From Tardiphaga robiniae (GTDB lineage: Bacteria > Pseudomonadota > Alphaproteobacteria > Rhizobiales > Xanthobacteraceae): a DNA stretch of 64,000 nucleotides. The notes beneath the pieces were generated by a model. It ran no database searches. It had not been told where the DNA came from and worked only from the letters and a program-made list of their open reading frames with translations. Below, piece after piece: positions 8,044-25,093 of the stretch (positions are counted from its first letter, which is position 1; every line of letters begins with the position of its first letter). The DNA is taken from assembly GCF_013359755.1 (NCBI RefSeq), contig NZ_JABMCJ010000085.1, forward strand, positions 62,001 through 126,000, in the 5' to 3' direction. The position numbers and the translations under genes were made by a program.

Positions 8044-9618
8044 ATGACCAACCCTGCCGAACCCTGCCGAAACGGTGGCTCCTGCTATCCGTCGACAGGC
8101 CTGGACCGCCTCCAAGTCGGTCATCTCCGGCATTTCGCGAATCTGTCCCGTCAGCCGCCGAACCAATGGGATTTGATGAAGGGCAAGGGATACGGGCAGG
8201 AAGATTTCGGCGGATACCGTTTCCAGCTGGCCTATATGGCCTATGCGCTTGCCCTTACTCACCGGCACAGGCTGCCGGCCGCTCCAGGCGTGTTCAAGCC
8301 GATCTTCGAACGGTTGATCGGCAAGATGCTGCTGCCCGAAGTGTGGATGTACTGGCGCGATGTCAGCCGGGGCGGCAGCATCTTCAACGCGCATCTCAGT
8401 CCCGGATATGTCGAGCAATGGGACCCGGTGATCCGAGATAACATCATGTACAGCGCATACCTTCAGTCGACGGCGCTGATGTACCACTATCTGTTCGACG
8501 ACGCCCGCTACGCGCAGCCCGGCGCGCTTGCGCTTCGGTTCTGGTCGTATTTCTGGGGCGGCGAGGAGAAGCGCTTCGTCTATGACGAGAAATCGCTCAA
8601 CACGCATATTTACTGGCAGATGGTCGAAAGCGGATATCTGGGGGTCGCCTGCGAACCGAACTGCACGTTCCAGATTTGCAATCAGCCGGCGATCCTCGGC
8701 TTCCGACTCCATGATTTCGTCTACGGCGGATCGATCGCAACCGATGTCGTCAGTGGATACGAACAAGCCTGGAGGGATTTCGGGCGGATCGGCGACAACG
8801 GCCATTACAACATCATGCTTGCTCAAGATACTAAATCCGTGCGGCCGAACGTCGGCAAGGCGGCTTGGGCCGACGCATGGTGCGGAACGCTGATGAATAT
8901 GTGGAACCGGGATTTCGTCCACGCGCACTACGCCGGGCAGGCAAAGGATTTCCTGAAGCCGGGGCCTGATGGCACGCTCTCGGTGATTGCAGGTGAACGC
9001 CCCCTCGTCATGGGACAGACCATCGTCAGCGACAGCTGCGATTTTGGATGGATGGCCGCATGGGCTTCCGAGATGGGCGACAACGCAACGCTTTGCGGTC
9101 TGTTCAAGCACGCCGAACGGCACATGTCGCCACGTTGGAGTGACGGGGGTCTGTATTACCCGCGCAACGACAACGCGACGGACGCGGACGGAAACGCCAC
9201 GATGATCGAGCCGATGTCTGGCAACGTGCTGATGGGATACGCAAGGCTCAACGTTCCCGACGGCCTGTGGCGATTCTACAACGAACCTTGGAACGCGTCG
9301 CGCTTCGCCGAGCCCGCCTTGACGCGCGTATCGGACGACCTCGACGTATCGAAGGCCTGGTTCGACGCGACCGCCAACCGGCTGGAGTTTGCACTGGACG
9401 GACGGGGCATCGCTTCCGACGGTGCGGTGGTGCTCGGCAATTTGCGATCGCGGGGACGCTGGATCATGCATCGGGACGGCGCAGAGATCGCGCGCGGAAA
9501 CGCGAACATTTCGGAATACACGGTCGGCGACGTGGAGCTGCGGCAATCCGAAGACGGACTCTTGCTCAGACATGTCGATCCGCGACCTGCGGCTTATGCC
9601 ATGACTTTCGAGGCGTGA
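8044..9618 (+). CDS. Linalool dehydratase/isomerase (LDI) family protein
   Basis: Protein of 524 residues of the LDI (alpha,alpha)6-barrel family, whose founder from Castellaniella defragrans interconverts geraniol, linalool and myrcene. Recognisable blocks are FGGYRFQLAYMAYALAL (about 55-71), WMYWRDVS (101-108) and GYLGVACEPNC...FQICNQPAILGF (198-220). Cys203 and Cys212 have the nine-residue spacing of the two active-site cysteines of the founder (C171 and C180, from memory). Unlike that periplasmic enzyme there is no signal peptide, so it is predicted to be cytosolic. The true substrate may differ from linalool. It is followed 4 bp later by an SCO-like gene. Confidence 0.8.
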   Translation: MTNPAEPCRNGGSCYPSTGLDRLQVGHLRHFANLSRQPPNQWDLMKGKGYGQEDFGGYRFQLAYMAYALALTHRHRLPAAPGVFKPIFERLIGKMLLPEVWMYWRDVSRGGSIFNAHLSPGYVEQWDPVIRDNIMYSAYLQSTALMYHYLFDDARYAQPGALALRFWSYFWGGEEKRFVYDEKSLNTHIYWQMVESGYLGVACEPNCTFQICNQPAILGFRLHDFVYGGSIATDVVSGYEQAWRDFGRIGDNGHYNIMLAQDTKSVRPNVGKAAWADAWCGTLMNMWNRDFVHAHYAGQAKDFLKPGPDGTLSVIAGERPLVMGQTIVSDSCDFGWMAAWASEMGDNATLCGLFKHAERHMSPRWSDGGLYYPRNDNATDADGNATMIEPMSGNVLMGYARLNVPDGLWRFYNEPWNASRFAEPALTRVSDDLDVSKAWFDATANRLEFALDGRGIASDGAVVLGNLRSRGRWIMHRDGAEIARGNANISEYTVGDVELRQSEDGLLLRHVDPRPAAYAMTFEA

Positions 9619-9622
9619 TCGC

Positions 9623-10189
9623 ATGACCGTACCCATGTTCTCCGAAATGCCGATGGTCAACGGCACCTTCCATTTGACGGATCACAACGATCGCAAGGTT
9701 AACACCGAAACCTTCCGTGGCAGCTTTGTGCTCGTCTTCTTTGGCTTTACGCATTGCCAGGTCGTATGCCCGCGGGCCCTTACAAAGCTCTCAGCTGCAC
9801 TAGATGCGATTGGCGACGCCCCGATACCGGTAACGGGGTTGTACATCACGGTCGATCCGGCTCGAGACAGTCCGCAGGTCATGCGCGACTTCCTGCGGTC
9901 CTATCCTCGCTTTCTCGGATTGACGGGGTCGCAGACAGAAATAGAGAACGCTAAAAGGAGTTTTCGCGTTTTCGCCACGCGCAGCGCTTCGTCACTCGAC
10001 GACGGAGGCTACGACGTGCCCCATACCGCGTTCACATATCTATTGGACCCCGCAGGACAGTTCATCGCGCACTTCGGCGACGCAATCAGCTTGAGCGAAC
10101 TGGTCGAGCGGCTTAGGCGATGTTTCATCAGCAGCAGTGCGACTGGAAAAACGATCAATGACCGATTGCCCGCGCATGGCGGATGCTGA
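9623..10189 (+). CDS. SCO1/SenC-family thioredoxin-fold protein lacking a signal peptide
   Basis: Protein of 188 residues with a thioredoxin fold. The copper/thiol motif CxxxCP is intact (C45, C49 in FTHCQVVCP), the conserved His134 (VPHTAF) is present, and the TVDPARDSP strand is typical of SCO. Ordinary SCO proteins are membrane-anchored in the periplasm and serve cytochrome oxidase assembly; this one starts directly at the domain with no leader and no oxidase genes nearby. Co-translation with the LDI-family gene suggests a role as its redox or metal partner. The C-terminal 20 residues after the domain look random. Confidence 0.78.
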   Translation: MTVPMFSEMPMVNGTFHLTDHNDRKVNTETFRGSFVLVFFGFTHCQVVCPRALTKLSAALDAIGDAPIPVTGLYITVDPARDSPQVMRDFLRSYPRFLGLTGSQTEIENAKRSFRVFATRSASSLDDGGYDVPHTAFTYLLDPAGQFIAHFGDAISLSELVERLRRCFISSSATGKTINDRLPAHGGC

Positions 10190-13245: not shown

Positions 13246-15564
13246 TTATCGCCACTGCTTTTCTTCCGCAGACCACGCCCAGCCTGGCAATTTACCCGGC
13301 TTGCTGAATGCCGTCACGATGTTGGCGAGCAAGCGCGAGACGTTGTTGTCGAAATTCTCGTAGGGCAACGACTGGCTGAACGCGATCGATCCGGTCGAGA
13401 AGACGGCGCCGTCTTGCGGCGACGTGAAATAGACCATGTCCGCGCGAACACGATAATCGTGAGAGCCGGACAGGCCAGGATAAGGATACAGCACCTCTTC
13501 GACGACAGTCTGATAATTGTCACTATGCCCCCCCGACGACGCAACGATGAGTGCATGCGGCGGCGTGCCGAGCGTCAGGTCGTAACGATCGATTTCAATG
13601 CCGCCAGCGGCACCTTGCGCGAGTCCGAAATCGCCGATGATCTCGCCTTCGATGCCGTCCAGTATCCATGATGCGCGACGATGCCAGCTGTCGGGCATGC
13701 GCCGGAACGGCCGCGCCGAATCGAAGCCTTCGGAAATGAAGCCGACACCGAACACCTTCTGTGGTGGGCGACCGAGATCCTTCCAAAGTCCGCTCTTCTG
13801 GCCCGTGGTAGCAAGATAATACTCGCCGGGCCGCGCCTGCCACGCCCGCATGCCGGAGTTCAGCTTGCGGACCTCCATACACCACGGATCATCGCTGTGG
13901 TAGCCGACGTTCCAATAGAAGCCGTTGCCGCCGAGATATATGAACCGTCCGCCCTGTGCGATATAATCTTCGGTTGCATCGAGCATCGTCTCGGAGACGT
14001 ATTCCGGATGCGTGCCGCTGAGCACGACGTTATAAGGTTCAAGGGCTGCGAGGCCTTCGCGGTGAAGGTCTTCATCGGTCGTGACATCGTAGTCGTACCC
14101 CATATGCTCAAGCCAGGCGATGATCGACAGGTCCGCTGGAAACTGCCAGGTCACGCCCATCGACGACATGCGAGCCTTTGGCCGCATGTTCAAGATCGGG
14201 CGACGATAGGTGCTGTAACAGACGCCGGCACCGTCCGCGTGATGATCGTACAGCGACAATCCGAATTCGGCCGTCTGGTACAACTCGATATCGACCTCCG
14301 ACAGGATCGGCGACTGCCCGGCGAGCGGCTGCATGATTTCGGCATCGAAACTCAGATGCTCGTTGGCGTAAGCAAGATAGCTTCCTGTCGGAACCAGAAA
14401 CAATATCGATGCGGTCGGTTTCGATGCCCGGACGAAGAACACGATATATTCTTCGCGCAGGCCTTTGGCATCGCCGGTTCGCAGCCGATAGGCATAGGCC
14501 CCGCTTTTCAGGTCGGGCACCTTGATCGTTCGGGTCAGTTCCCACTTGCAATCGATGATTGCGTCGTCGTGGAATTCGATGCCGCCAAATTGCTCAGGCG
14601 CGAGACGGAAGCAATCGTCGCGACCCTGCCAGTTATATCCGGTCTGCGCGCGCACCGGACGATTGTAGCCTTCGGCATCAAGGCCGTTGGGACCGCGGTC
14701 GATGACCCGATCGCCGATTCCGCGTTCGGTATAGCCGCAAGCGGTGTCCCAATACGCTATCAAACCTTCGGCCGGTGCCGTGGCTGTGTCGCGATAGCGA
14801 TCGAGTTCGTCGCGCGTCAGCACGCGTCCGAATACGGCCGGGCGATCAAGCTTGCCGTTGAGGCATTGCGTTACGAAAGTGCCGCGCAGTGTGTGACGAT
14901 CCTGCGCACCCGCCATCAGGAACGGCAGATCGGGCGGATTCAGCGGACGAAAGCGCATCGTTTCGCGCACATGCGACCGGAAGTCGACATTCGCGACCTT
15001 GCTGAGCAGGCTGTTGTACCGCGTCGAGACGCCCTCCTGATACAGCGTGGCCACACCGCTGCGTGCATCGAAGGTCGCAGCAACAAAATACCAGTTGTTC
15101 CTCAGTACAGGCACTTCCGCGTCGACGTAATCAACCTCGTTGCCATCGCCAAATCCGAATTCGAGAGAGCCATCGGGGTTGAGCCAAAGGCCATAGCCGC
15201 GATTGCCGAATGCATCCCAGCGGCCGAGCAGACACTGCCGACGCCCGCCGCCCGGGTTCGTCGGGAAGATGAAGGTGCACAGGCTGAAGCTGCCATCTAG
15301 AGCGAGATGGCCGCTCGGGTCCGCAACGGTCAGAAAGGCGCCGACCTGCGTGAACTGCTTGCGGACATCCCACATACCGTCGGCGACGCAGGCTATCTCT
15401 TCCTCACGATAGCCGGGACCTGCCGGATGCGCGTCGCCGTGGATCAACCGTACCAGCTGCGCGTCTACCGATCTCGTGCCATCGGCATGGACGTAGAAAC
15501 CGATATCGTCGCCCGGCTTGACCGAAATCTTGTCTGCGTATCCGAAAACTTTTTTCTCGGCCAT
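13246..15564 (-). CDS. dmfA2: N,N-dimethylformamidase large (beta) subunit-like protein
   Basis: Protein of 772 residues matching the DMFase large subunit in length (about 760) and layout: an N-terminal beta-rich region (1-70), a LamG/concanavalin-like domain (about 75-260, GRWDAFGNRGYGLWL) and the catalytic C-terminal domain (about 345-740). DMFase hydrolyses dimethylformamide to dimethylamine and formate at a mononuclear iron held by two tyrosines and a glutamate. Tyr399 (SYLAYAN), Tyr439 (SLYDHH) and Glu521 (GTHPEY) fall at or within one position of the numbers I recall for the Paracoccus enzyme (Y399, Y440, E521). It is the last gene of the amide ABC operon, 36 bp after the small-subunit domain. 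The actual amide substrate is unproven. Confidence 0.85.
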   Translation of the reverse strand: MAEKKVFGYADKISVKPGDDIGFYVHADGTRSVDAQLVRLIHGDAHPAGPGYREEEIACVADGMWDVRKQFTQVGAFLTVADPSGHLALDGSFSLCTFIFPTNPGGGRRQCLLGRWDAFGNRGYGLWLNPDGSLEFGFGDGNEVDYVDAEVPVLRNNWYFVAATFDARSGVATLYQEGVSTRYNSLLSKVANVDFRSHVRETMRFRPLNPPDLPFLMAGAQDRHTLRGTFVTQCLNGKLDRPAVFGRVLTRDELDRYRDTATAPAEGLIAYWDTACGYTERGIGDRVIDRGPNGLDAEGYNRPVRAQTGYNWQGRDDCFRLAPEQFGGIEFHDDAIIDCKWELTRTIKVPDLKSGAYAYRLRTGDAKGLREEYIVFFVRASKPTASILFLVPTGSYLAYANEHLSFDAEIMQPLAGQSPILSEVDIELYQTAEFGLSLYDHHADGAGVCYSTYRRPILNMRPKARMSSMGVTWQFPADLSIIAWLEHMGYDYDVTTDEDLHREGLAALEPYNVVLSGTHPEYVSETMLDATEDYIAQGGRFIYLGGNGFYWNVGYHSDDPWCMEVRKLNSGMRAWQARPGEYYLATTGQKSGLWKDLGRPPQKVFGVGFISEGFDSARPFRRMPDSWHRRASWILDGIEGEIIGDFGLAQGAAGGIEIDRYDLTLGTPPHALIVASSGGHSDNYQTVVEEVLYPYPGLSGSHDYRVRADMVYFTSPQDGAVFSTGSIAFSQSLPYENFDNNVSRLLANIVTAFSKPGKLPGWAWSAEEKQWR

Positions 15565-15600: not shown

Positions 15601-17250
15601 TCAGGTCTCGAGCAGATCCTGAACGCGGCGCAGGAACAGGGCGTGATAGGCCTGGTCAGGCGTCTCGTAATTGCGGTCTTCCACGACGCGTGGCGCGGTC
15701 CCGCGATGTCCCGATAAAGCGACGATGCGGTAGGCCTTGAATTCCTCGAGCACCAGGATCGCATATTTGTCGATCTGGCCCTGCCTGCGGAAATAGATCA
15801 GCAGACGTTCGAGCGCCTCGCTGTGCTGGCCGAGTGGCCGAGATTGGTGCTCGGCGATGACGGCGTCGGATACAAGGCGCTTCAGGAAGTCACGCTGCAT
15901 CTTGTCGAAGCGGCGGAAGTAAACCTGGTCCTTGTCTTCCATTTCGGTCGCCTCTTCCGGTAGCATCTCTCCACCTTTCTCGGCGCGCGTTGCACGCCTC
16001 TCGCTCTTCTTCTTGTCACGCCAGGTTCGGAACTGATCCTTGATGCCGAACAGCCCACCGCGCAGAAACAGCGCCACGCTCAGCATGATCGTGCCGATCA
16101 GCACGTAGCGCAGCGGGCCGAGATCGATCAGCACGCGGTCGATGAAGACGACGATCAAGGTGCCGAGAACGGCGCCCTCGGCGCGGCCGATGCCGCCGAT
16201 CACCAGCATCGCCAACGACAACAGCAAGGTGTCGAACGAGAACAGATTGGGCGATGCGCCGCCGAAATGAATGGCGTAGAACCCGCCGATAAAACCGAGT
16301 GCCGCCGACGAGGCCAGAAACACCATGATCCGCGCGCGAATGAAATCGACGCCACAGGCCTGTGCGAAGCCTTCCTTCTTCTCCTGCGCCATGCGCAGCA
16401 GACGGCCGAGACGTTTGCCGTCAATGAAACGATAGATGAAGAGCGCGAAGATCATCAGCAACACGGAGGCATAATAGCTGAACAGTAGCCGGTTGGATTG
16501 CGACAGGCCGTCGGGCAGATAGCTCGGCGCGCCATAGAGGCCGCCGGTCGCCGATCCGAGCTGACGCGACTGGACGACAAAAACGCGGCACAATTCGACG
16601 ACGCCCAACGTCAGCAGCGCGTAATAGAAGCCGTCGAGCCGCATCGCCGGCAGGGCGATCATGACACCGAAGACTAGGCCGATCAGCGTTCCGGCGAATG
16701 GCAGAACCCACCATGGCAGACCCAGCATGATCGCCAGATAGGTTGCACCATAGGCCGCCGCGCCGACGACGGCATAGGTTGCCAGCGAGAAGATGCCCGC
16801 CGTGCCGACGATCAGCATCCAGCACAGATTGATCGCAGCATAGATGGCGAACACGGAAGCCGCGCTCATCACCGTATTTCGGAAACCTTCCGGAACGAAA
16901 AGCGGCATAGTAAAAAGGGCAGCCAATGCCAATGCCCACCAGATCGGCCGCTTGTCGACGATCGTCTTTTCGCGACGCATTGTTTTCAGATTATAATCGC
17001 CGTGGATGTTGAGCACGCGGCGACGCGTCGGCCAGTATCGCAGGCGCGACCACAGACGCCCGCCATGGCCGGGCCATTTATAGTAATAGCGCAGCCGTCC
17101 GACCGGATACATCTTCGGCGTGAAGCGCGTGGTCTCGTCCCACGTCACCTGATGCGAGAGGAAGGAGTTGGTGACGGCCTCGCGGCCCGGCTTCTCGGGA
17201 AATTGCGAATCGATCGGATCGATCCAGATCGGCGCGGATGAATCCGTCAT
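15601..17250 (-). CDS. LivM-type ABC permease fused to N,N-dimethylformamidase small (alpha) subunit
   Basis: A continuous 549-residue frame. Residues 1-100 are a polar cytoplasmic extension of unknown function. Residues about 101-410 are a LivM permease with the usual helices and GGxGRAEGAVLGT (the ATPase-contact loop region). Residues about 429-549 match the DMFase small subunit, with AYRIVALSGHRG and then the C-terminal YHALFLRRVQDL corresponding to the known AYRI and MHAVFLRRIEDV stretches. Just before the enzyme domain, an in-frame ATG at 15966 is preceded by AGGTGGAG, a plausible ribosome site, so a free 121-residue subunit could also be made. It starts 3 bp after livH. Fusion of a transporter to the enzyme that consumes its cargo is unusual. 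Confidence 0.82.
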   Translation of the reverse strand: MTDSSAPIWIDPIDSQFPEKPGREAVTNSFLSHQVTWDETTRFTPKMYPVGRLRYYYKWPGHGGRLWSRLRYWPTRRRVLNIHGDYNLKTMRREKTIVDKRPIWWALALAALFTMPLFVPEGFRNTVMSAASVFAIYAAINLCWMLIVGTAGIFSLATYAVVGAAAYGATYLAIMLGLPWWVLPFAGTLIGLVFGVMIALPAMRLDGFYYALLTLGVVELCRVFVVQSRQLGSATGGLYGAPSYLPDGLSQSNRLLFSYYASVLLMIFALFIYRFIDGKRLGRLLRMAQEKKEGFAQACGVDFIRARIMVFLASSAALGFIGGFYAIHFGGASPNLFSFDTLLLSLAMLVIGGIGRAEGAVLGTLIVVFIDRVLIDLGPLRYVLIGTIMLSVALFLRGGLFGIKDQFRTWRDKKKSERRATRAEKGGEMLPEEATEMEDKDQVYFRRFDKMQRDFLKRLVSDAVIAEHQSRPLGQHSEALERLLIYFRRQGQIDKYAILVLEEFKAYRIVALSGHRGTAPRVVEDRNYETPDQAYHALFLRRVQDLLET

Positions 17251-17253
17251 AGT

Positions 17254-18135
17254 CTATGCCTCGCGCGCTTTGTCTAGAATGCCGGAGATGCCACGCGGGC
17301 GGATCAGCAGAACGATGATGATGAGCAGGAATTGCGTGATCAGAACATATTGACCACCCAGCAGCGAGGACGTCAGCGCTTCGTTCACACCGAGCATGAT
17401 CGCGCCGATGATCGCACCGGGAATGCTGCCGAGACCTCCGACCAGCGCGATGCTCAGGCCTTTGATCATGGGCGTGATGCCGCTGAACGGCGCGACGTAA
17501 TAGGTCTGCGCCAGAAGCACCGAGGCCAATCCGGCCAGAGATCCCGTCAGGGCCATCACATAGATGCCGGTCCTGCGAACACCGATGCCGACGATAGATG
17601 CGGCGTGCGGATTCATCATCATCGCGCGAATCTCCAGCCCGCGACGGCTCGACCGCATCCACAAGAGAATCATCGTTAACAGAACGATGGCGGAGAGCGA
17701 TGCACCGAGCTTGTCCGACGTGACGACGATGCCGAAGATATCGGCATTCCAGTTTCCGAACAGGCGAGGCAACGACTTGGCGCGCGGGCCGAACCACCAC
17801 AGCAGAATCTGATTGCCGACCAGGCTGATCGCCAGCGTCGCGATCAGTGCGCGCAATTGAAAATTCGGCTTGTCGTGAATCGGAATGAAAGCGAGCAGAC
17901 AGACGATCAACCCGCCGGCCGCACCTGTGAGAATTCCCGCAACCATGACAACGGCCGGGTTTGGCGCGATGTAAACGCTGGCGAGCCAGGCGCCATATCC
18001 CGACAGCGCGAAAATGAACCCATAGGCCATGTTGATCAGGCCGAGGCTTGACCATGTGACCGATATGCCGATCGCAAGCGTGCCGTAGATGCAGGCCAGC
18101 GTAATCGCATTGGTGATGATGAAGCCCCAGTTCAT
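17254..18135 (-). CDS. Branched-chain/amide-type ABC permease, LivH-like
   Basis: Inner-membrane permease of 293 residues, about eight hydrophobic helices, typical LivH length. The LINMAYGFIFALSGYGAW start region and the GGLGSIPGAIIGA loop are hallmark LivH features. It overlaps the ATPase gene upstream (ATGA) and precedes the LivM fusion by 3 bp, so the two permeases are translationally linked. It should dimerise with the LivM part to form the channel for the amide cargo. Confidence 0.92.
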   Translation of the reverse strand: MNWGFIITNAITLACIYGTLAIGISVTWSSLGLINMAYGFIFALSGYGAWLASVYIAPNPAVVMVAGILTGAAGGLIVCLLAFIPIHDKPNFQLRALIATLAISLVGNQILLWWFGPRAKSLPRLFGNWNADIFGIVVTSDKLGASLSAIVLLTMILLWMRSSRRGLEIRAMMMNPHAASIVGIGVRRTGIYVMALTGSLAGLASVLLAQTYYVAPFSGITPMIKGLSIALVGGLGSIPGAIIGAIMLGVNEALTSSLLGGQYVLITQFLLIIIVLLIRPRGISGILDKAREA

Positions 18136-18872
18136 CGCTCGCGCTCCGCGGACATGGCTCTCGACGCGGAGGCCTCGCCTTTGAGTTTTCCGGCATGCAT
18201 GCCGATGATGCGGTCGACACTGCCTTCGAGCAGCGCGACGTTCTGCTCGGCGATCACCATCGCGGAGCCGCCAAGTTCGACCGCCATAAGGGCTTCGACC
18301 ACGGCTTTTCCGATCTTTGGCGCCAAGCCCAATGAAGGTTCATCAACAAGAAACAGTTCGGCGTCCGACATCAGGCCCCGCCCGATCGACACCATGCGGC
18401 GCTCACCGCCGGACAACCGTCCGACCGCCGTCTTCATCAGTTTTTCCAAAGGCGGAAAAATCAGCAGAATCTTCGTCTTGCGGATCCCGCGTTCGGACCA
18501 CGCGCGCTTGGTGAATGCACCGCTGTCGAGGTGTTCCTCGACGGTCAAGCCGTGAAAGATTTCGTCGCCTTGCGGGATGAAGGCGAGGCCCCGGCGCACG
18601 ATCAGATGGGTGTAGCGGCCCGGCCCCTGGCTGCGCGTACGCCCCACCTCTTCGCCGTTCAGCTTGATCGAACCGCGCTGCCAGCCGGTCAATCCGGCGA
18701 TTGCCTGAAACAACGTGGACTTGCCGTGGCCGTTCAGGCCGACCAGGCCAATGCGCTCGCCTGCGAAGACGGTAAGATCGAGATCGTGAATGACACGCAT
18801 CGGCCCCCAGCCGGCGGACAGGCCCTTGACGTCGAGAACGGCCGGACGAACGCCATGGTCGGAGACGTTCAT
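18132..18872 (-). CDS. Branched-chain/amide-type ABC ATPase, LivF-like
   Basis: ATPase of 246 residues. Walker A GLNGHGKST (about 41), signature LSGGERRM (about 150) and Walker B LFLVDEPSLGL are all present, and the length is typical of LivF. It overlaps both neighbours by 4 bp or less. It pairs with the LivG-like ATPase on the cytoplasmic face of the LivH/LivM channel. Confidence 0.93.
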   Translation of the reverse strand: MNVSDHGVRPAVLDVKGLSAGWGPMRVIHDLDLTVFAGERIGLVGLNGHGKSTLFQAIAGLTGWQRGSIKLNGEEVGRTRSQGPGRYTHLIVRRGLAFIPQGDEIFHGLTVEEHLDSGAFTKRAWSERGIRKTKILLIFPPLEKLMKTAVGRLSGGERRMVSIGRGLMSDAELFLVDEPSLGLAPKIGKAVVEALMAVELGGSAMVIAEQNVALLEGSVDRIIGMHAGKLKGEASASRAMSAERER

Positions 18873-19609
18873 CAGTGTAGCCCTTCACCGGACTCGGTTT
18901 CGAAATAGGCCGCTTTGACGCGCGGATTTTTCAGAGTCTCCGCGAATGAGCCCTCGGCGATCGTCTCGCCGGCATCCATCACGAGCACACGATCCGCGAT
19001 CGTATCGAGCAGTTCCATGCGGTGTTCGATCAGGACGATCGCGATATTCAGCTCTTTCGCCAGGACGCGCATGATGTCGTCGAGTTCGTCGATCTCGGAA
19101 TTGATCAGCCCGGCGGCGGGCTCATCCATCAGCAACACGGAGGGGCGGCGCATCAACAGGCACGCGATCAGAAGCTTGCGACGGTTCAGCGTATCAAGCC
19201 GGTCCGCCATCATTGCCCCGGGAATACGGAAGTCGACGAGGCCCGCCCCCCATTCGGAATCGTCGGGCGTCAGATAGGGCTTATACGCCTGACGCGCCGC
19301 CTTCAGAACCTGCGCAACGGTCATGTCTTCCGGAACGATCGGGGTCTGATAGGTCCGGCCGATCCCGAGGCGTGCCCGCTTGTGCAGCGGAAGCGCCGTG
19401 ATATCGCGGCCCGCGAACGACACCTTGCCGGCCTTTGGCGAGATCCGGCCGGACAGCACTTCAAACAGGCTGGTCTTGCCGGCGCCGTTCGGCCCGATGA
19501 TGCCCATCACCTCCCCGGATTTCACACCGAATGAAATGCCGCGCAGGATCGAGCGACCGCCGAGGTCGAGCGTGATGTCGACGCAAGAGAAAAGTGGAGA
19601 CGCGGTCAT
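18872..19609 (-). CDS. Branched-chain/amide-type ABC ATPase, LivG-like
   Basis: ATPase of 245 residues, start at the ATG 19609 (MTASPLF); a longer frame to 19762 exists but overlaps the binding-protein gene. Walker A GPNGAGKTS, a Walker B region VLLMDEPAAGL and the switch His (LIEHRM) are visible. The signature segment reads LNRRKLLIACLLMRRP rather than the usual LSxGQ(Q/R)R, so the canonical LSGGQ is missing; FmdE/LivG relatives sometimes vary here, but this deserves a check. It lies 22 bp after the binding protein. Confidence 0.9.
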   Translation of the reverse strand: MTASPLFSCVDITLDLGGRSILRGISFGVKSGEVMGIIGPNGAGKTSLFEVLSGRISPKAGKVSFAGRDITALPLHKRARLGIGRTYQTPIVPEDMTVAQVLKAARQAYKPYLTPDDSEWGAGLVDFRIPGAMMADRLDTLNRRKLLIACLLMRRPSVLLMDEPAAGLINSEIDELDDIMRVLAKELNIAIVLIEHRMELLDTIADRVLVMDAGETIAEGSFAETLKNPRVKAAYFETESGEGLH

Positions 19610-19631: not shown

Positions 19632-20927
19632 TCACCACCATGGCGCTTTCTGCAGTTTCGACTCGGTGAGCACGTCCGGATATATGATCTTGTGCTCGTT
19701 GTTCTGAACCTGAAAGAACAGTTGAGCCATTCCCTTGTCGAGGTCGGCGGCGCCGATCGCATCGCCTGTATCGGGAAAATGCGCGCATTCCTGATAGGGA
19801 TTATCCATGCTCATGAAGCCGCAGACACCACGATAGGAGTTCTTGCGAATCCAGTCGCTGACGCCCTTGAAGTTATTGGGATCGCCGACGGCTTCCCATG
19901 CGGCCTTCAGATAGTGCGTCGTGTCGTAGCCGTTGCCCGTGTAACAAAGCCCCATGATGCCGGGAAACCGCTTTTTGTATTTCGCACGGAATGCCTTTCC
20001 TTTTTCATCGGCATAAACGCCGAGCACCGTGCTCCAAACGAAACCTTCGGCGGCGGGGCCGGACAGTTCGAGAAATTCCGGTTGCGACGGGCCGTACTGC
20101 AGATAGACGAGCGCCCCCTTCAGCGGATCTGCGCTGTACTGCTTGACGAAGGCGGCATATTCGGCGGCGACCCAGTGATCGATCATCACGGCGCCCGCGC
20201 CGATTTTCTTGATCTCCTGAAGCACCGATCCCCAGTCTTGCACCGGGTATTGAATGTCGGTGATCCCCGCGAGTTTGAACTCGCTCTTGGGCAGAGAGGC
20301 CTGCAAAGCCTTGGAAATGGTCTGGTTGTAGGCAATCTGCTCCTGAACGATATGCACGCCGTTATTCAACGGCTTCCAAGTGCCTTGGTCTTTCATGGCT
20401 TTCAGGAAGACCGGGAAGGTATGCCCGTAATGGACTTCAGACGGGTCGGTCTGAAAGACGTGCGAGTATTTGTCCGGTTGTTTGACAACGAGGTCGGTCA
20501 TGTTGCGCTGCGTCAGCCCCCACAACAGCGGGGCCTTGTAGCGCGCCGAAACTTCGGCCACCGGAATTGGCGTGAAGACGAACGCGCATGACATCGCATG
20601 CACCTTGGCGTCGATCAGCTTGTTGATTGCAACCTGTCCGCTCTCCGGAGACAGCGGATCGATATCCACGACAACGGCCTTGACCTGCCGGCCAAGAACG
20701 CCGCCAGCCGCATTGATTTCCTCTAACGCGAGCGTGGTGCCGTTCAGATAGTCCTGGTGATCGGCGACGCCTGCCTGGGCCGTCTGCGCCGTCGGCACGC
20801 CGAGCAGGATCGGCTCGTTGGAGGCGGCGCGCGTCGATCCCGACACGAAAGGCGAAGACAATGCTGCGGCGGCTGTGCCTGCCGAGGCGACTTGCAGAAG
20901 CTTACGACGCGTGACCTTGCCGCTCAT
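19632..20927 (-). CDS. Amide/branched-chain-type ABC substrate-binding protein with Tat signal
   Basis: Periplasmic binding protein of 431 residues. The start at 20927 is supported by a GGGGAG ribosome site. The N-terminus has TRRKLLQ followed by a hydrophobic Ala-rich region, a twin-arginine signal. The mature region (LGVPTAQTAQAGVADHQDYL, GGVLGRQVK) belongs to the type I fold of LivK, FmdD (formamide/short amides) and AmiC. It is the first gene of the operon that ends with the DMFase subunits, so amide capture is a reasonable inference. Confidence 0.88.
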   Translation of the reverse strand: MSGKVTRRKLLQVASAGTAAAALSSPFVSGSTRAASNEPILLGVPTAQTAQAGVADHQDYLNGTTLALEEINAAGGVLGRQVKAVVVDIDPLSPESGQVAINKLIDAKVHAMSCAFVFTPIPVAEVSARYKAPLLWGLTQRNMTDLVVKQPDKYSHVFQTDPSEVHYGHTFPVFLKAMKDQGTWKPLNNGVHIVQEQIAYNQTISKALQASLPKSEFKLAGITDIQYPVQDWGSVLQEIKKIGAGAVMIDHWVAAEYAAFVKQYSADPLKGALVYLQYGPSQPEFLELSGPAAEGFVWSTVLGVYADEKGKAFRAKYKKRFPGIMGLCYTGNGYDTTHYLKAAWEAVGDPNNFKGVSDWIRKNSYRGVCGFMSMDNPYQECAHFPDTGDAIGAADLDKGMAQLFFQVQNNEHKIIYPDVLTESKLQKAPWW

Positions 20928-21156
20928 GAGATATCTCCCCTGCCGATCGTTTCGGATGACTTTCACCTGAAAGCACGCAAGCCTAGGAGCGCGGCGGCCC
21001 GGGCGTCTTTCACTGGGGGGAACAGTCTTTTGTGCTAGGGCGCACTGATTGAGCCTTGCGGACCTTCGTAAAGTCGCGCAGCATCTGGCACGGATTTTGC
21101 TAGACTCTTGACGCCTGTTTTCAGAGCATTATCGCCGAATTTTCGGGTTACCAGTC

Positions 21157-22098
21157 ATGTTGCACCATTATTCGACAGCCGACGTGCCGGATGCCAAGAG
21201 CGTCGATGCGTGGCGCCAGGCCATGGCTGAGGTGTACTATCGGCTCGATATCAAATGTTCGAACAACGGCCGCTTGAACGGCGAAATCACCGACGCTCAT
21301 TTCGAGACGATGGGCATTTCAACTTTCAAGGCCGATGCACAGCGCGTCATCCGTCATCGGGATGCGGCGAAGATCGATCGATCGGAAGACCTGGTTTTTC
21401 TTTTTCCGACCCGAAAGGTCATGTGCTTCGAGCAGCGCGGACGATCGGGCGTTATCACGCCTGGCGATGTCTTTCTGTTGAACTCGGCTGAGGACTATAT
21501 CGTTGACGTCCCCGACGGGTCGGCGAACATCACGATCAAGATCGATCGCGACTTGCTGGTCGATCGGGTGGGCGGCATCGACGAGATGTGCGCGAAGACG
21601 CACATCGCCAATCCCTATCTTATTCCCGCCGTCACAACTCTGGCTGAACAATTGTCGAAATTTCAAACCAGTCAGAATGTCGACAGGATTCAGAAATCTG
21701 TTATCGATCTGATCTGCCTCATGCTCGAAACGCGACAGCGGAACGATCTGGATAGTCCTGTTCGGCAGACCCTCGCGATGCTTCTGTTCGATCGCTGTCT
21801 CGTCTTTTTGCGCGACAATCTGCATAGGCGGGATCTTTCACCTGACATCGCCGCGCAACATCTCCGGATTTCCGTTCGATATCTGCACAAGATATTCCAG
21901 CACAACCAGCTGTCGTTCGGTCAAAAGCTCCTCGAAATGCGCCTGCAAAAAGCGCAGAATTTAGTTGTTATGAAATGCGATCGCGGCCGCATCAATCTTG
22001 GGGAGGTTGCATTCAACTGCGGCTTCTCGAGCCAGTCGTATTTCTCCGCGTGTTATCGGCGACATTTCGGAATGTCGCCGAGCGACGCCGGGCGCTGA
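21157..22098 (+). CDS. AraC-family regulator, FeaR-like
   Basis: Regulator of 313 residues. The N-terminal two-thirds is an AraC-binding-like sensor domain (MCFEQRGRSGVITPGDVFLLN region), and residues about 215-310 hold two helix-turn-helices (LSPDIAAQHLRISVRYLHKIF; LGEVAFNCGFSSQSYFSACYRRHFG). It is divergent from the amide importer/DMFase operon across a 230-bp gap, which makes it the likely activator of that operon. Confidence 0.88.
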   Translation: MLHHYSTADVPDAKSVDAWRQAMAEVYYRLDIKCSNNGRLNGEITDAHFETMGISTFKADAQRVIRHRDAAKIDRSEDLVFLFPTRKVMCFEQRGRSGVITPGDVFLLNSAEDYIVDVPDGSANITIKIDRDLLVDRVGGIDEMCAKTHIANPYLIPAVTTLAEQLSKFQTSQNVDRIQKSVIDLICLMLETRQRNDLDSPVRQTLAMLLFDRCLVFLRDNLHRRDLSPDIAAQHLRISVRYLHKIFQHNQLSFGQKLLEMRLQKAQNLVVMKCDRGRINLGEVAFNCGFSSQSYFSACYRRHFGMSPSDAGR

Positions 22099-22843: not shown

Positions 22844-23036
22844 TCACCAAGTGAAGCGGGCTCCGATTTTGCCGTCGTAGGCGTAGCTTTTTCCTTCGAA
22901 GCGAGATTGATAGGAAACGTTGGCGAATAGGGTGGCATTGGAATTCACTTGGCCGCTAACGCCCGCGCTCAATTCGCCCCACGTACCATTGAGTGTGGCG
23001 TGGAACGGGGTGAAGCCGGTATCGGACGAGAACTCG
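22844..23036 (-). pseudogene. Autotransporter beta-barrel C-terminal remnant
   Basis: The last 55-60 residues of a minus-strand frame read FHATLNGTWGELSAGVSGQV, then NATLFANVSYQSRF and end GKIGARFTW. The alternating pattern and terminal aromatic residue are the closing strands of an autotransporter barrel. Upstream the frame passes directly into an RND pump remnant, so the passenger and most of the barrel are gone. Confidence 0.6.
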
Positions 23037-25093
23037 GTAAGATGATGTCGGCCACACCGGGCGTTGCTCTCATTACGCCAACAACGTCCTGAAGGACGGC
23101 CTCCGTCCGTTGCAGGGATGCGGCGTTCGGGAGCTGCACGTTCACGAACATATAACCTAGGTCTTCCGATGGAATGAAGCCTGACGGCAGGATACGAAAT
23201 AAGCCGTAGACGCCGCCGAGCAACGTCAGAAACGCGAACGAGGTGACAACGACGCGGCGCGATGCACCGATCATGCCGGCGAGATACCAACGGCGGGAGA
23301 TATCGAGGGCGGCGTTGAAACCGCGAAACCCGGCGAATGAGGGTGGCTCCCGCCGTCGCAAAATGAGTGCGCACAGCGCGGGGCTCAATGTCAGGGCGTT
23401 GATCGTCGAGAACGTGATGGTGACGAGAATGGTCAGGGCAAATTGTCGATAGAGCTGTCCGGTAATCCCGCTCAGGAAGGCAATTGGCACGAACAATGCG
23501 CCCAACACCAGGGTGGTGGTGACGATCGGCCCGGTGACCTGCTCCATTGTGCGGCGTGCGGCCTTAGCGGTCGTGATGTCGTCGTGCTCTGCCATCACGC
23601 GCTGGACGTTCTCGACGACGACAATGGCGTCGTCCACAACGAGGCTGATGGCCAGAATAATCCCGAACAATGTGATCGTGTTGGCGGAGTAACCGAACAG
23701 GTAGAGAACCGCGAAGCTGCCAATCAGAGAAACAGGGATCGTCAGTGTGGGGATGAGTGTGGCGCGCCAGTCCTGAAGGAAGAGATAGGTAACGAGGACC
23801 ACGAGAAGGAATGTGATCAACAGCGCGATCATGATTTCGCGGATCGTTTCGATGACGAAGGACGTGTTGTCGAACACGACACGATAGGCAAGATCTTCGG
23901 GAAAACTCGCGGAAATACGCGTCAGTTCGGTTCGGATGGTTTGCGCCACAGCGAGGGCATTGGCGTCGGGGGCCTGATAGACAACCAGTGTTGCGCTGGG
24001 TAGTCCATTGAAGCGCGACTGCGCGGGCGACGTCGCGGATGCGAACGATCGCGCCGTCGCTGTTCGTTCGCATCACGACGTTCTCAAATTCGCGAGGTGT
24101 GCCCAAGCGTCGACGTGCCGTGATCGTCAGTTGAAGCTATTGTCCCTTTTGTGCGGGGGCGGAGCCGATCTGGCCGACGGATGCCTGCGCATTCTGCACC
24201 TGGACGGCGCTCGTCAGATCTGCGGCCGTGATCCCAAGCGCAGTCATGCGGTCCGGGTTCATCCAGATACGCATACTGTAGGCCGGTCCGAAGACACCCG
24301 CATCGCCCACGCCACGGACGCGCGCGATCGCATCGCGCACATTGATGGAGACAAAGTTGCTGATGAAGATATCGTCCCTTGTTCCCTTGGGAGAGTAGAC
24401 CGCGACGCCCATCAGCATGCTAGTCGATCGGCTGCGCACCGACACGCCGGTCTGCGTGACGGTCGGCGGTAGGCGGGCCGTCGCCATGGCCACGCGGTTC
24501 TGGACATTCACCTGGGCAATCGACGGATCGGTGCCGACGGCGAAGGTGACCGTCAGCGAATAGGTGCCGCTGTTGGTGCTGGTCGACGACATATAGAGCA
24601 TGTGCTCGACGCCATTGACCTGCTCCTCAATCGCGGCTCCGACGCTGTCCATCACAACGCTGGCATTAGCGCCGGGATAGCTGGCCGTGACCTGGACTTC
24701 CGGCGGCGTAATTGGAGGAAACTGGGCGAGCTGCAGCCGTCCGCATCCTGCAGCGTCGCCAAGCCGAGCCTGGGCGGCCGTGAGAACGATTTCCAGCACG
24801 GCCCTTTCGATTGCAAAGAGGTCTTGCCCCTCAGCGACGATCTGTCCTTCGTTGAACAGCCGCTTTTCGAGGAAGCCATCGACGCGGGCGCGAATATCAA
24901 CGGCATTCTTGGCTTCAACGCCGATGAATTCGCTATTGAGCGAGGTGTCCGACACCACAATGGTCGTCACGCTAACGACCGGGAGCGGCATTTCGGCCAA
25001 AGCCTCCGACCCGGCTGACAGAGTTGCCATGACTATCGCCACGGAGACGCCGAATGAGCGCGATCTTTGGCGTCTTGGACCCGCAAGGCACAT
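23037..25093 (-). pseudogene. Decayed AcrA-AcrB type RND efflux operon, fused and interrupted
   Basis: Reading from 25093, an AcrA-like membrane-fusion N-terminus (VDIRARVDGFLEKRLFNEGQ) runs, after an internal deletion near 24740, in frame into AcrB porter-domain sequence (ASYPGANASVVMDSVGAAIE, MRIWMNPDRMTAL). An amber codon follows KGQ at 24137-24139. Homology resumes in the same frame (TPREFENVVMRTNSDGAIVR) and then jumps frame near 24030. The last segment, 22969-23949, encodes AcrB helices 2 onward (LVVDDAIVVVENV) and stops abruptly near 23040 at an autotransporter fragment. Deletion, nonsense, frameshift and truncation together exclude function. Confidence 0.85.

Follow-up and report, generated by a model that had tools for sequence, protein, structure and literature searches.

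A LivM-type permease fused to a dimethylformamidase small subunit, with a conserved candidate start codon at the junction

The window analysed here is a stretch of 64,000 nucleotides from Tardiphaga robiniae (contig NZ_JABMCJ010000085.1, positions 62,001 to 126,000), and all coordinates refer to this stretch. It contains an operon on the minus strand in which the gene for a LivM-type permease continues, in the same frame, into a domain resembling the small (alpha) subunit of dimethylformamidase (DMFase). The features considered below are as follows.

13246..15564 (-): DMFase large (beta) subunit, 772 aa (6lvb_A, E 5.6e-183)
15601..17250 (-): fused gene livM::dmfA1-like, ATG to TGA, 549 codons, 62.1 kDa product, no internal stop
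16951..17250 (-): N-terminal extension, residues 1-100, preceding the first membrane helix; basic, net +8
16075..16866 (-): permease domain BPD_transp_2 (LivM/UrtC-like), residues 129-392 (Pfam E 1.2e-21)
15967..16065 (-): basic linker LRGGLFGIKDQFRTWRDKKKSERRATRAEKGGE, residues 396-428, net +6
15967..15981 (-): Shine-Dalgarno-like stretch GAGAAAGGTGGAGAG, codons 424-428
15964..15966 (-): in-frame ATG, Met429, proposed internal start
15604..15966 (-): DMFase small-subunit (alpha) domain; the proposed free product would have 121 aa and 14.4 kDa
17254..18135 (-): LivH-like permease (profile match)
18132..18872 (-): LivF-like ATPase (profile match)
18872..19609 (-): LivG-like ATPase; the listed ORF starts at 19762, and 19609 was picked by eye, relatives aligning from there
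19632..20966 (-): substrate-binding protein, Peripla_BP_6, with a possible Tat signal
21157..22098 (+): AraC-family regulator, divergent from the operon

A preliminary description of this DNA had read the fused gene as a single 549-codon frame joining a LivM-type channel to a DMFase alpha subunit, and each element of that reading was recovered. The frame at 15601-17250 contains no stop, the BPD_transp_2 match covers the channel part, and residues 433-546 are homologous to the small subunit of the Paracoccus enzyme (6lvb_B, E 1.4e-9). The same chain was the best PDB match of an AlphaFold2 model (Foldseek E 1.5e-4; target-normalised TM 0.80), which was built from 27 aligned sequences and had a mean pLDDT of 75.2, with 56-66 in the linker. 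Alignment with DmfA1, which the description had proposed as a check, gave about 28% identity and placed Met429 close to where the free DmfA1 proteins begin. The permease part did not reach the NCBIfam cut-offs for LivM (71.9 of 366 bits) or UrtC (48.6 of 296.2), and a Pfam scan of residues 1-100 returned no match for the N-terminal extension, in which the blocks RLRYYYKWPGHG and RYWPTRRR are kept among relatives. This extension may form a second contact with the enzyme or with the ATPases. The linker, with the pattern FGIKxQFRxWRDKKKSERRxxRAEKGGE, is among the best-conserved stretches of the fusion. In the model, ten helices that we took as membrane-spanning lie between the basic N-terminus and the basic linker, and a basic coupling-type loop follows the sixth helix, for which reasons both ends of the permease, and hence the enzyme domain, are likely to be cytoplasmic, as had been supposed.

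The genes for LivH, the two ATPases and the Peripla_BP_6 protein lie upstream of the fusion on the same strand, and the beta gene begins 36 bp past the fusion's stop. The domain scans and the 6lvb_A match thus agree with the operon content first described. When positions were counted by hand on the printed 6lvb_A alignment, beta residues Y399, Y439, H519, E521 and N547 aligned with Y399, Y440, H519, E521 and N547. The Fe ligands of the Paracoccus enzyme are Y399, Y440 and E521, according to excerpts of PMC7686228. The order sbp-livG-livF-livH-livM::alpha-beta is kept in every fusion locus compared whose sequence extends far enough; some have an additional alpha gene or alpha-beta pair, and one (L117, G800:C15) has a porin-like frame, about 400 residues between fusion and beta that look by eye like an outer-membrane porin. 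The Methylocella operon is adjoined by a binding-protein/histidine-kinase/LuxR trio (Pfam and NCBIfam scans); this trio and the porin-like frame fit uptake and sensing of a small amide. A helix-turn-helix regulator divergent from the operon is also present on four rhizobial plasmid records (L067, L160, L161, L162). Scans of the other flanks found pyruvate dehydrogenase, argC, CobW, chemotaxis and AraC genes and several frames without a match, and among the 16 frames scanned (Pfam, NCBIfam) of 80 listed flanking frames there was no amine pathway. On one rhizobial plasmid an S-formylglutathione hydrolase and gfa lie near the fusion operon. In the plasmid of Aminobacter sp. MDW-2 (L066), the fusion is followed by two large-subunit genes with no separate small subunit, and the internal start is retained. 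Elsewhere in the window we observed a linalool dehydratase/isomerase-like protein at 8044-9618 (+) (Pfam Ldi, E 2.2e-108), a frame directly after it at 9623-10189 (+) with a SCO1-type thioredoxin-fold look by eye, and at 22969-25093 (-) parts of an RND efflux pump and adaptor, recognised by eye and apparently rearranged.

A genome scan with the whole protein, using peptide patterns from both halves, gave 37 distinct loci, assigned by record name to alpha- and betaproteobacteria and to Acidiferrobacteraceae, which we take to be gammaproteobacteria. The alpha domain was matched in every one. A stop codon between permease and enzyme domain, which the preliminary description had named as evidence against the fusion, is absent: the junction is open in 37/37 loci, and the frame is uninterrupted throughout in 36, the exception being L056, on a contig with ambiguous bases, where the frame breaks at about residue 65, well away from the junction. 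The full collection comprises the 65 fusions that remained after 63 duplicate loci were dropped, fusions being counted as distinct if their DNA differs anywhere between the fiftieth codon before the junction and the stop. The idea that the fusion arose from an assembly or sequencing error that lost a stop codon has next to no probability, the junction being open in all 65 of these loci from many sequencing projects, and with the 37/37 open junctions they rule out an artefact or a chance open frame.

The C-terminal domain was also sought among LivM homologs, as first suggested. A LivM-only query gave 14 matches among 397 genomes of the order (E <= 1e-40), 14/14 of them in alpha-carrying frames of at least 479 codons, one of which (G310) has just the first half of alpha before the contig end; no unfused member of the fused-permease clade was found among these 397 genomes. 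A fifteenth genome of the order (G200) carries the 3′ part of the fusion alone, on a short contig. The alpha profile matched 52 of the 397 genomes (E <= 1e-8), mostly as short free frames. In a phylum sample of 398 genomes, which overlaps the order sample and includes the window's genome, there were alpha matches in five, and two of the five are the fusion. The fusion was also found on 26 plasmid records covering at least 80% of the query, many from near-identical Agrobacterium strains, and the operon is present on plasmids typed as conjugative. The annotation of the 26 records is a branched-chain amino acid permease in 24 and nothing at the locus in two. In each of two genomes belonging to one genus there are two different fusions (L148/L149 in G855, L164/L165 in G1129), one with ATG and one with GTG as the junction start. 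On a plasmid of Halalkalicoccus jeotgali (L062:7800-8342), a free archaeal small-subunit gene beside beta is labelled 'inner-membrane translocator', a label probably carried over from the fusion.

Inspection of the junction pointed to a candidate internal start. The window reads GAG AAA GGT GGA GAG ATG and many relatives read GAG AAA GGA GGC GAG ATG, with the peptide KGGE kept in 65/65 fusions. The genome of the window contains one exact copy of GGATCACCTCCTTTCT, presumably the 16S 3′ end, which is complementary to AGAAAGGAGG. Tests based on the energy of this pairing gave weak results. In an ungapped sum with G-U pairs allowed, the window's Shine-Dalgarno duplex was no better than that of synonymous shuffles (p 0.356), and p was below 0.1 in 20/53 loci. 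Gapped duplex energies overlap between the two classes of loci defined below, from -9.5 to -11.4 in window-type A loci and mostly -11.0 in B loci; neither the gapped nor the ungapped measure separates the classes, because the EKGGE peptide is purine-rich by itself. Nor is the window's own junction weakly folded (-13.6 vs -11.8), 70% of the gene's windows being as open or more so. If all small subunits were attached to the importer and the junction start were unused, a Shine-Dalgarno energy that is ordinary for the peptide sequence, as in the window, would be expected, and the uninterrupted frame agrees with this too. The comparison of loci with and without a separate alpha gene bears on this explanation.

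The 65 fusions were divided into 48 A loci, which are followed by a large-subunit gene and lack a separate alpha gene within 3.5 kb downstream, and 13 B loci, with a separate alpha gene downstream, four further loci being undecided at contig ends. These classes disregard alpha genes elsewhere, which some A genomes have (in L032, one about 8 kb downstream). A start codon at 429 or 430 is present in 48/48 A loci vs 8/13 B loci. In eight A loci (L055, L058, L114, L116, L121, L149, L165, L166), codon 429 stands for Val, Pro or Ile and is followed directly by GTG, TTG or ATG; because a start codon stands at 430 where 429 lacks one, it is the start codon and not the amino acid that is conserved. Among B loci ATG is found at 429 in 7/13, and of the six others L112 alone has a start at 430 (TTG). 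Of the undecided loci 3/4 have a start; the one that lacks it, L053, is closely related to the B locus L048.

Codon choice around the junction follows the same division. Lys425 is encoded by AAA in 45/48 A loci vs 1/13 B loci. In the column-wise tests, which omit the partial loci L112 and L166 and so compare 47 A with 12 B loci, AAA is used at 425 in 45/47 A loci, against a median AAA share of 12% among the 10 conserved Lys columns. GGA at Gly426 (24/47) and Gly427 (18/47) ranks first and second of 34 Gly columns, and GAA just after the start, at Glu433 (42/47) and Glu432 (30/47), ranks first and second of 14 Glu columns. The corresponding counts in B loci are 0/12 for AAA425, GGA426 and GGA427, 5/12 for GAA433 and 1/12 for GAA432. 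When the A loci were thinned to 19 with less than 80% identity, AAA425 (18/19) was still first, GGA426 (10/19) and GGA427 (7/19) still first and second, and GAA433 first, with GAA432 sharing second place. At a 70% cut, leaving eight A loci, AAA425 (7/8) and GGA426 still rank first, and the lead of GGA427 and of the Glu columns is no longer clear. The third-position GC content is alike in the two classes (A 0.842, B 0.833), and after GC3 matching AAA425 is found in 39/41 A vs 0/12 B loci. The contrast of AAA with AAG at 425 between A and B tops 664 column-codon tests with p 8e-11, uncorrected for relatedness; other columns differ as well, as relatedness would give, with p larger by at least four orders of magnitude. 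The mRNA in a 45-nt stretch around the junction folds weakly in the 19 thinned A loci, with a mean energy of -8.2 vs -12.2 over the gene as a whole, and strongly in the 12 B loci (-17.4 vs -12.3).

A start codon present in every A locus, shifted by one codon in eight of them, is left unexplained by an importer-attached subunit alone, and so are the choice of AAA, GGA and GAA and the weaker signal where a separate alpha exists. One alpha per channel would also be expected to cap the active enzyme at the copy number of the transporter. For these reasons we consider it unlikely that the fused protein is the only product. The purine-rich stretch might instead make the ribosome pause, giving LivM time for insertion and folding ahead of synthesis of the soluble domain, and its position, about 30 codons past the last membrane helix, is suitable. 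Such a pause needs neither the start codon nor the A-rich codons after it, and its signal should not weaken when a separate alpha gene is present, so that this explanation appears highly improbable. A conserved start codon together with a codon signal independent of the peptide is the signature expected of a gene with two products, and the comparative data at the junction show it.

This contrast is to be read with the relationship of the loci in mind. The LivM tree has two changes of state for the separate gene and four for the start, every one of them within the clades concerned. With just two changes in the separate gene, the contrast represents few independent events, and a phylogenetic pair test of the separate gene against start loss has 1-2 independent pairs, with which it cannot reach 0.05. 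Of the loci first analysed after the idea of an internal start arose, the 19 A loci, several of them close relatives, have the start in 19/19, AAA in 17/19 and GGA in 17/19, and the three B loci have AAA in 1/3 and GGA in 0/3.

The fused copy is maintained also where a separate gene exists. Across seven related loci that have both, the fused domain has a median omega of 0.033 (21 pairs), indicating strong purifying selection, compared with 0.038 for LivM residues 230-400 in the same loci. Since the fused domain is constrained despite the separate alpha, the fused copy appears to do something that the free copy does not. This constraint would also be expected if the importer-attached form were the sole product. 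It bears as well on the converse possibility, that what counts is the free subunit, the fused form either arising as a by-product or being cleaved proteolytically in the linker, with a soluble enzyme as in Paracoccus. The comparative data do favour a free product, alpha is a free gene in Methylobacterium DM1 and on P. aminophilus plasmids, and the alpha of the Paracoccus enzyme is free (excerpts of PMC7686228). However, the 14/14 permease-clade members that carry alpha, the constraint on the fused alpha where the locus has its own separate one, and the conservation of the linker all speak against it, and we judge this possibility improbable. The preliminary description had treated a tethered and a free subunit as alternatives. 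The fusion that it described stands, and the constraint suggests that the domain is of use when fused; its opposition of the two forms appears incomplete, as the start at residue 429 and the comparative data point to both products from one gene.

A 40-row alpha tree with DmfA1 as its root includes 9/13 of the separate alpha genes of the B loci. They nest inside the fused clade (36-row node, 97/96) at two places: those of L065, L111 and L112 adjoin their own fused copies (100/98), and the six others group together (92/95). The AU test weakly rejects a single common origin of the separate alphas (p 0.0325) and does not reject monophyly of the fused rows (p 0.059). A free betaproteobacterial alpha (L068) also falls inside the fused clade, on a long branch and with unsure placement. 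The separate alpha genes thus appear to be duplicates of the fused domain, apparently made twice. In 7/13 B loci, forming one clade (L034, L042, L044, L045, L052, L059, L060), the separate gene opens with GGAGAG followed at a short distance by ATGCTGCC or ATGTTGCC, so that these seven starts read GGAGAG...ATG(C/T)TGCC, like the junction. In this clade the start signal looks to have been copied along with the junction; such a junction-like start was not seen in the other 6/13 B loci.

Taken together, the reading that we favour, with a probability of roughly 0.68, is that one gene would give two products, an importer-anchored and a free small subunit, and that the hydrolase would be placed at the mouth of the channel. 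Translation of the full length would yield LivM-alpha, half of the ABC channel with the small subunit held in the cytosol on the conserved basic linker. Initiation at the internal Shine-Dalgarno stretch and start codon would yield the same small subunit in free form, with an N-terminus about that of an ordinary free DmfA1. The large subunits from the next gene would bind both forms; the anchored alpha would recruit the iron hydrolase to the importer, and the free alpha would complete the tetramer or serve enzyme away from the membrane. ABC importers of this kind contain a single LivM, which would provide one anchored alpha, and the second alpha of an alpha2beta2 enzyme would be supplied by the internal start. 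According to excerpts of PMC7686228, the beta subunit of the Paracoccus DMFase is inactive alone and the active enzyme is alpha2beta2, the N-terminal helix of the small subunit is wedged between two large subunits, and the active-site cavity is lined by small and large subunits together. Because of these contacts and the inactivity of beta alone, a small subunit on the channel would be expected to bring large subunits there. The substrate, probably a small N-substituted amide, would be captured in the periplasm, transported into the cell and there hydrolysed at the mouth of the channel. Dimethylformamide (DMF) itself is a guess, and because of the low identity of alpha to DmfA1 the substrate may differ from it. 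A more complete proposal is held tentatively, at somewhat below even odds: a metabolon in which the anchored alpha of the two-product gene would seat the iron amide hydrolase at the cytoplasmic mouth of the importer, the internal start would give the second, free alpha, and at least two later splits by duplication would have produced fusion-only and free-subunit genes while the internal start decayed.

With an enzyme subunit covalently joined to the importer of its likely substrate, handover from transporter to enzyme becomes testable by moving one domain. An internal start that is weaker where the free subunit has its own gene would also show, as a natural experiment, how duplication resolves a two-product gene. 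The fusion further explains a gap in annotation, in that the listed plasmid records name the gene, if it is annotated, just as a branched-chain amino acid permease. Finally, the operon bears on the breakdown of amide solvents, because it is carried on plasmids typed as conjugative and in genera known for methylotrophy.

The preliminary description knew of no described example of such a fusion. It is not a singleton, as the 65 loci differing in DNA attest; the literature part of the statement held, since in the PubMed Central open subset we found no paper in which dimethylformamidase occurs alongside both an ABC transporter and a small subunit, or alongside a branched-chain amino acid. ABC importers, DMFase and internal starts are each known, and their combination was not found in that literature. 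The importer resembles the LivKHMGF and Urt systems in having two BPD_transp_2 permeases, two ATPases and a Peripla_BP_6 binding protein, and differs from them in that its fused permease scores far below the LivM and UrtC cut-offs and has a 100-residue N-terminal extension and a C-terminal enzyme domain. FmdDEF is an ABC importer for short-chain amides. The enzyme shares with DmfA1/DmfA2 (Paracoccus, PDB 6lvb, excerpts of PMC7686228; P. aminophilus pAMI2, excerpts of PMC4543880) the small-subunit fold, a large subunit with the Tyr2-Glu iron site, and adjacent alpha and beta genes in the same order. There, however, the roughly 15-kDa alpha is a free polypeptide whose gene lies beside a LuxR-type regulator, and no transporter is annotated in the plasmid stretches examined, the gene tables of which are incomplete; here alpha is fused to LivM, and a free alpha chain from the window's gene is predicted from the internal start alone.

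A known case of a long protein made together with its own C-terminal domain is found in type III secretion. In flagella, FliN is encoded by a separate gene. According to excerpts of PMC4295842, SctQ/YscQ is accompanied by its C-terminal domain YscQC through internal initiation, the long and short forms are both needed in one complex, and FliN, the homologue of YscQC, exists apart in flagella (FliM/FliN). The proteins are unrelated to those described here, where the long product is a membrane channel and the predicted short product an enzyme subunit.
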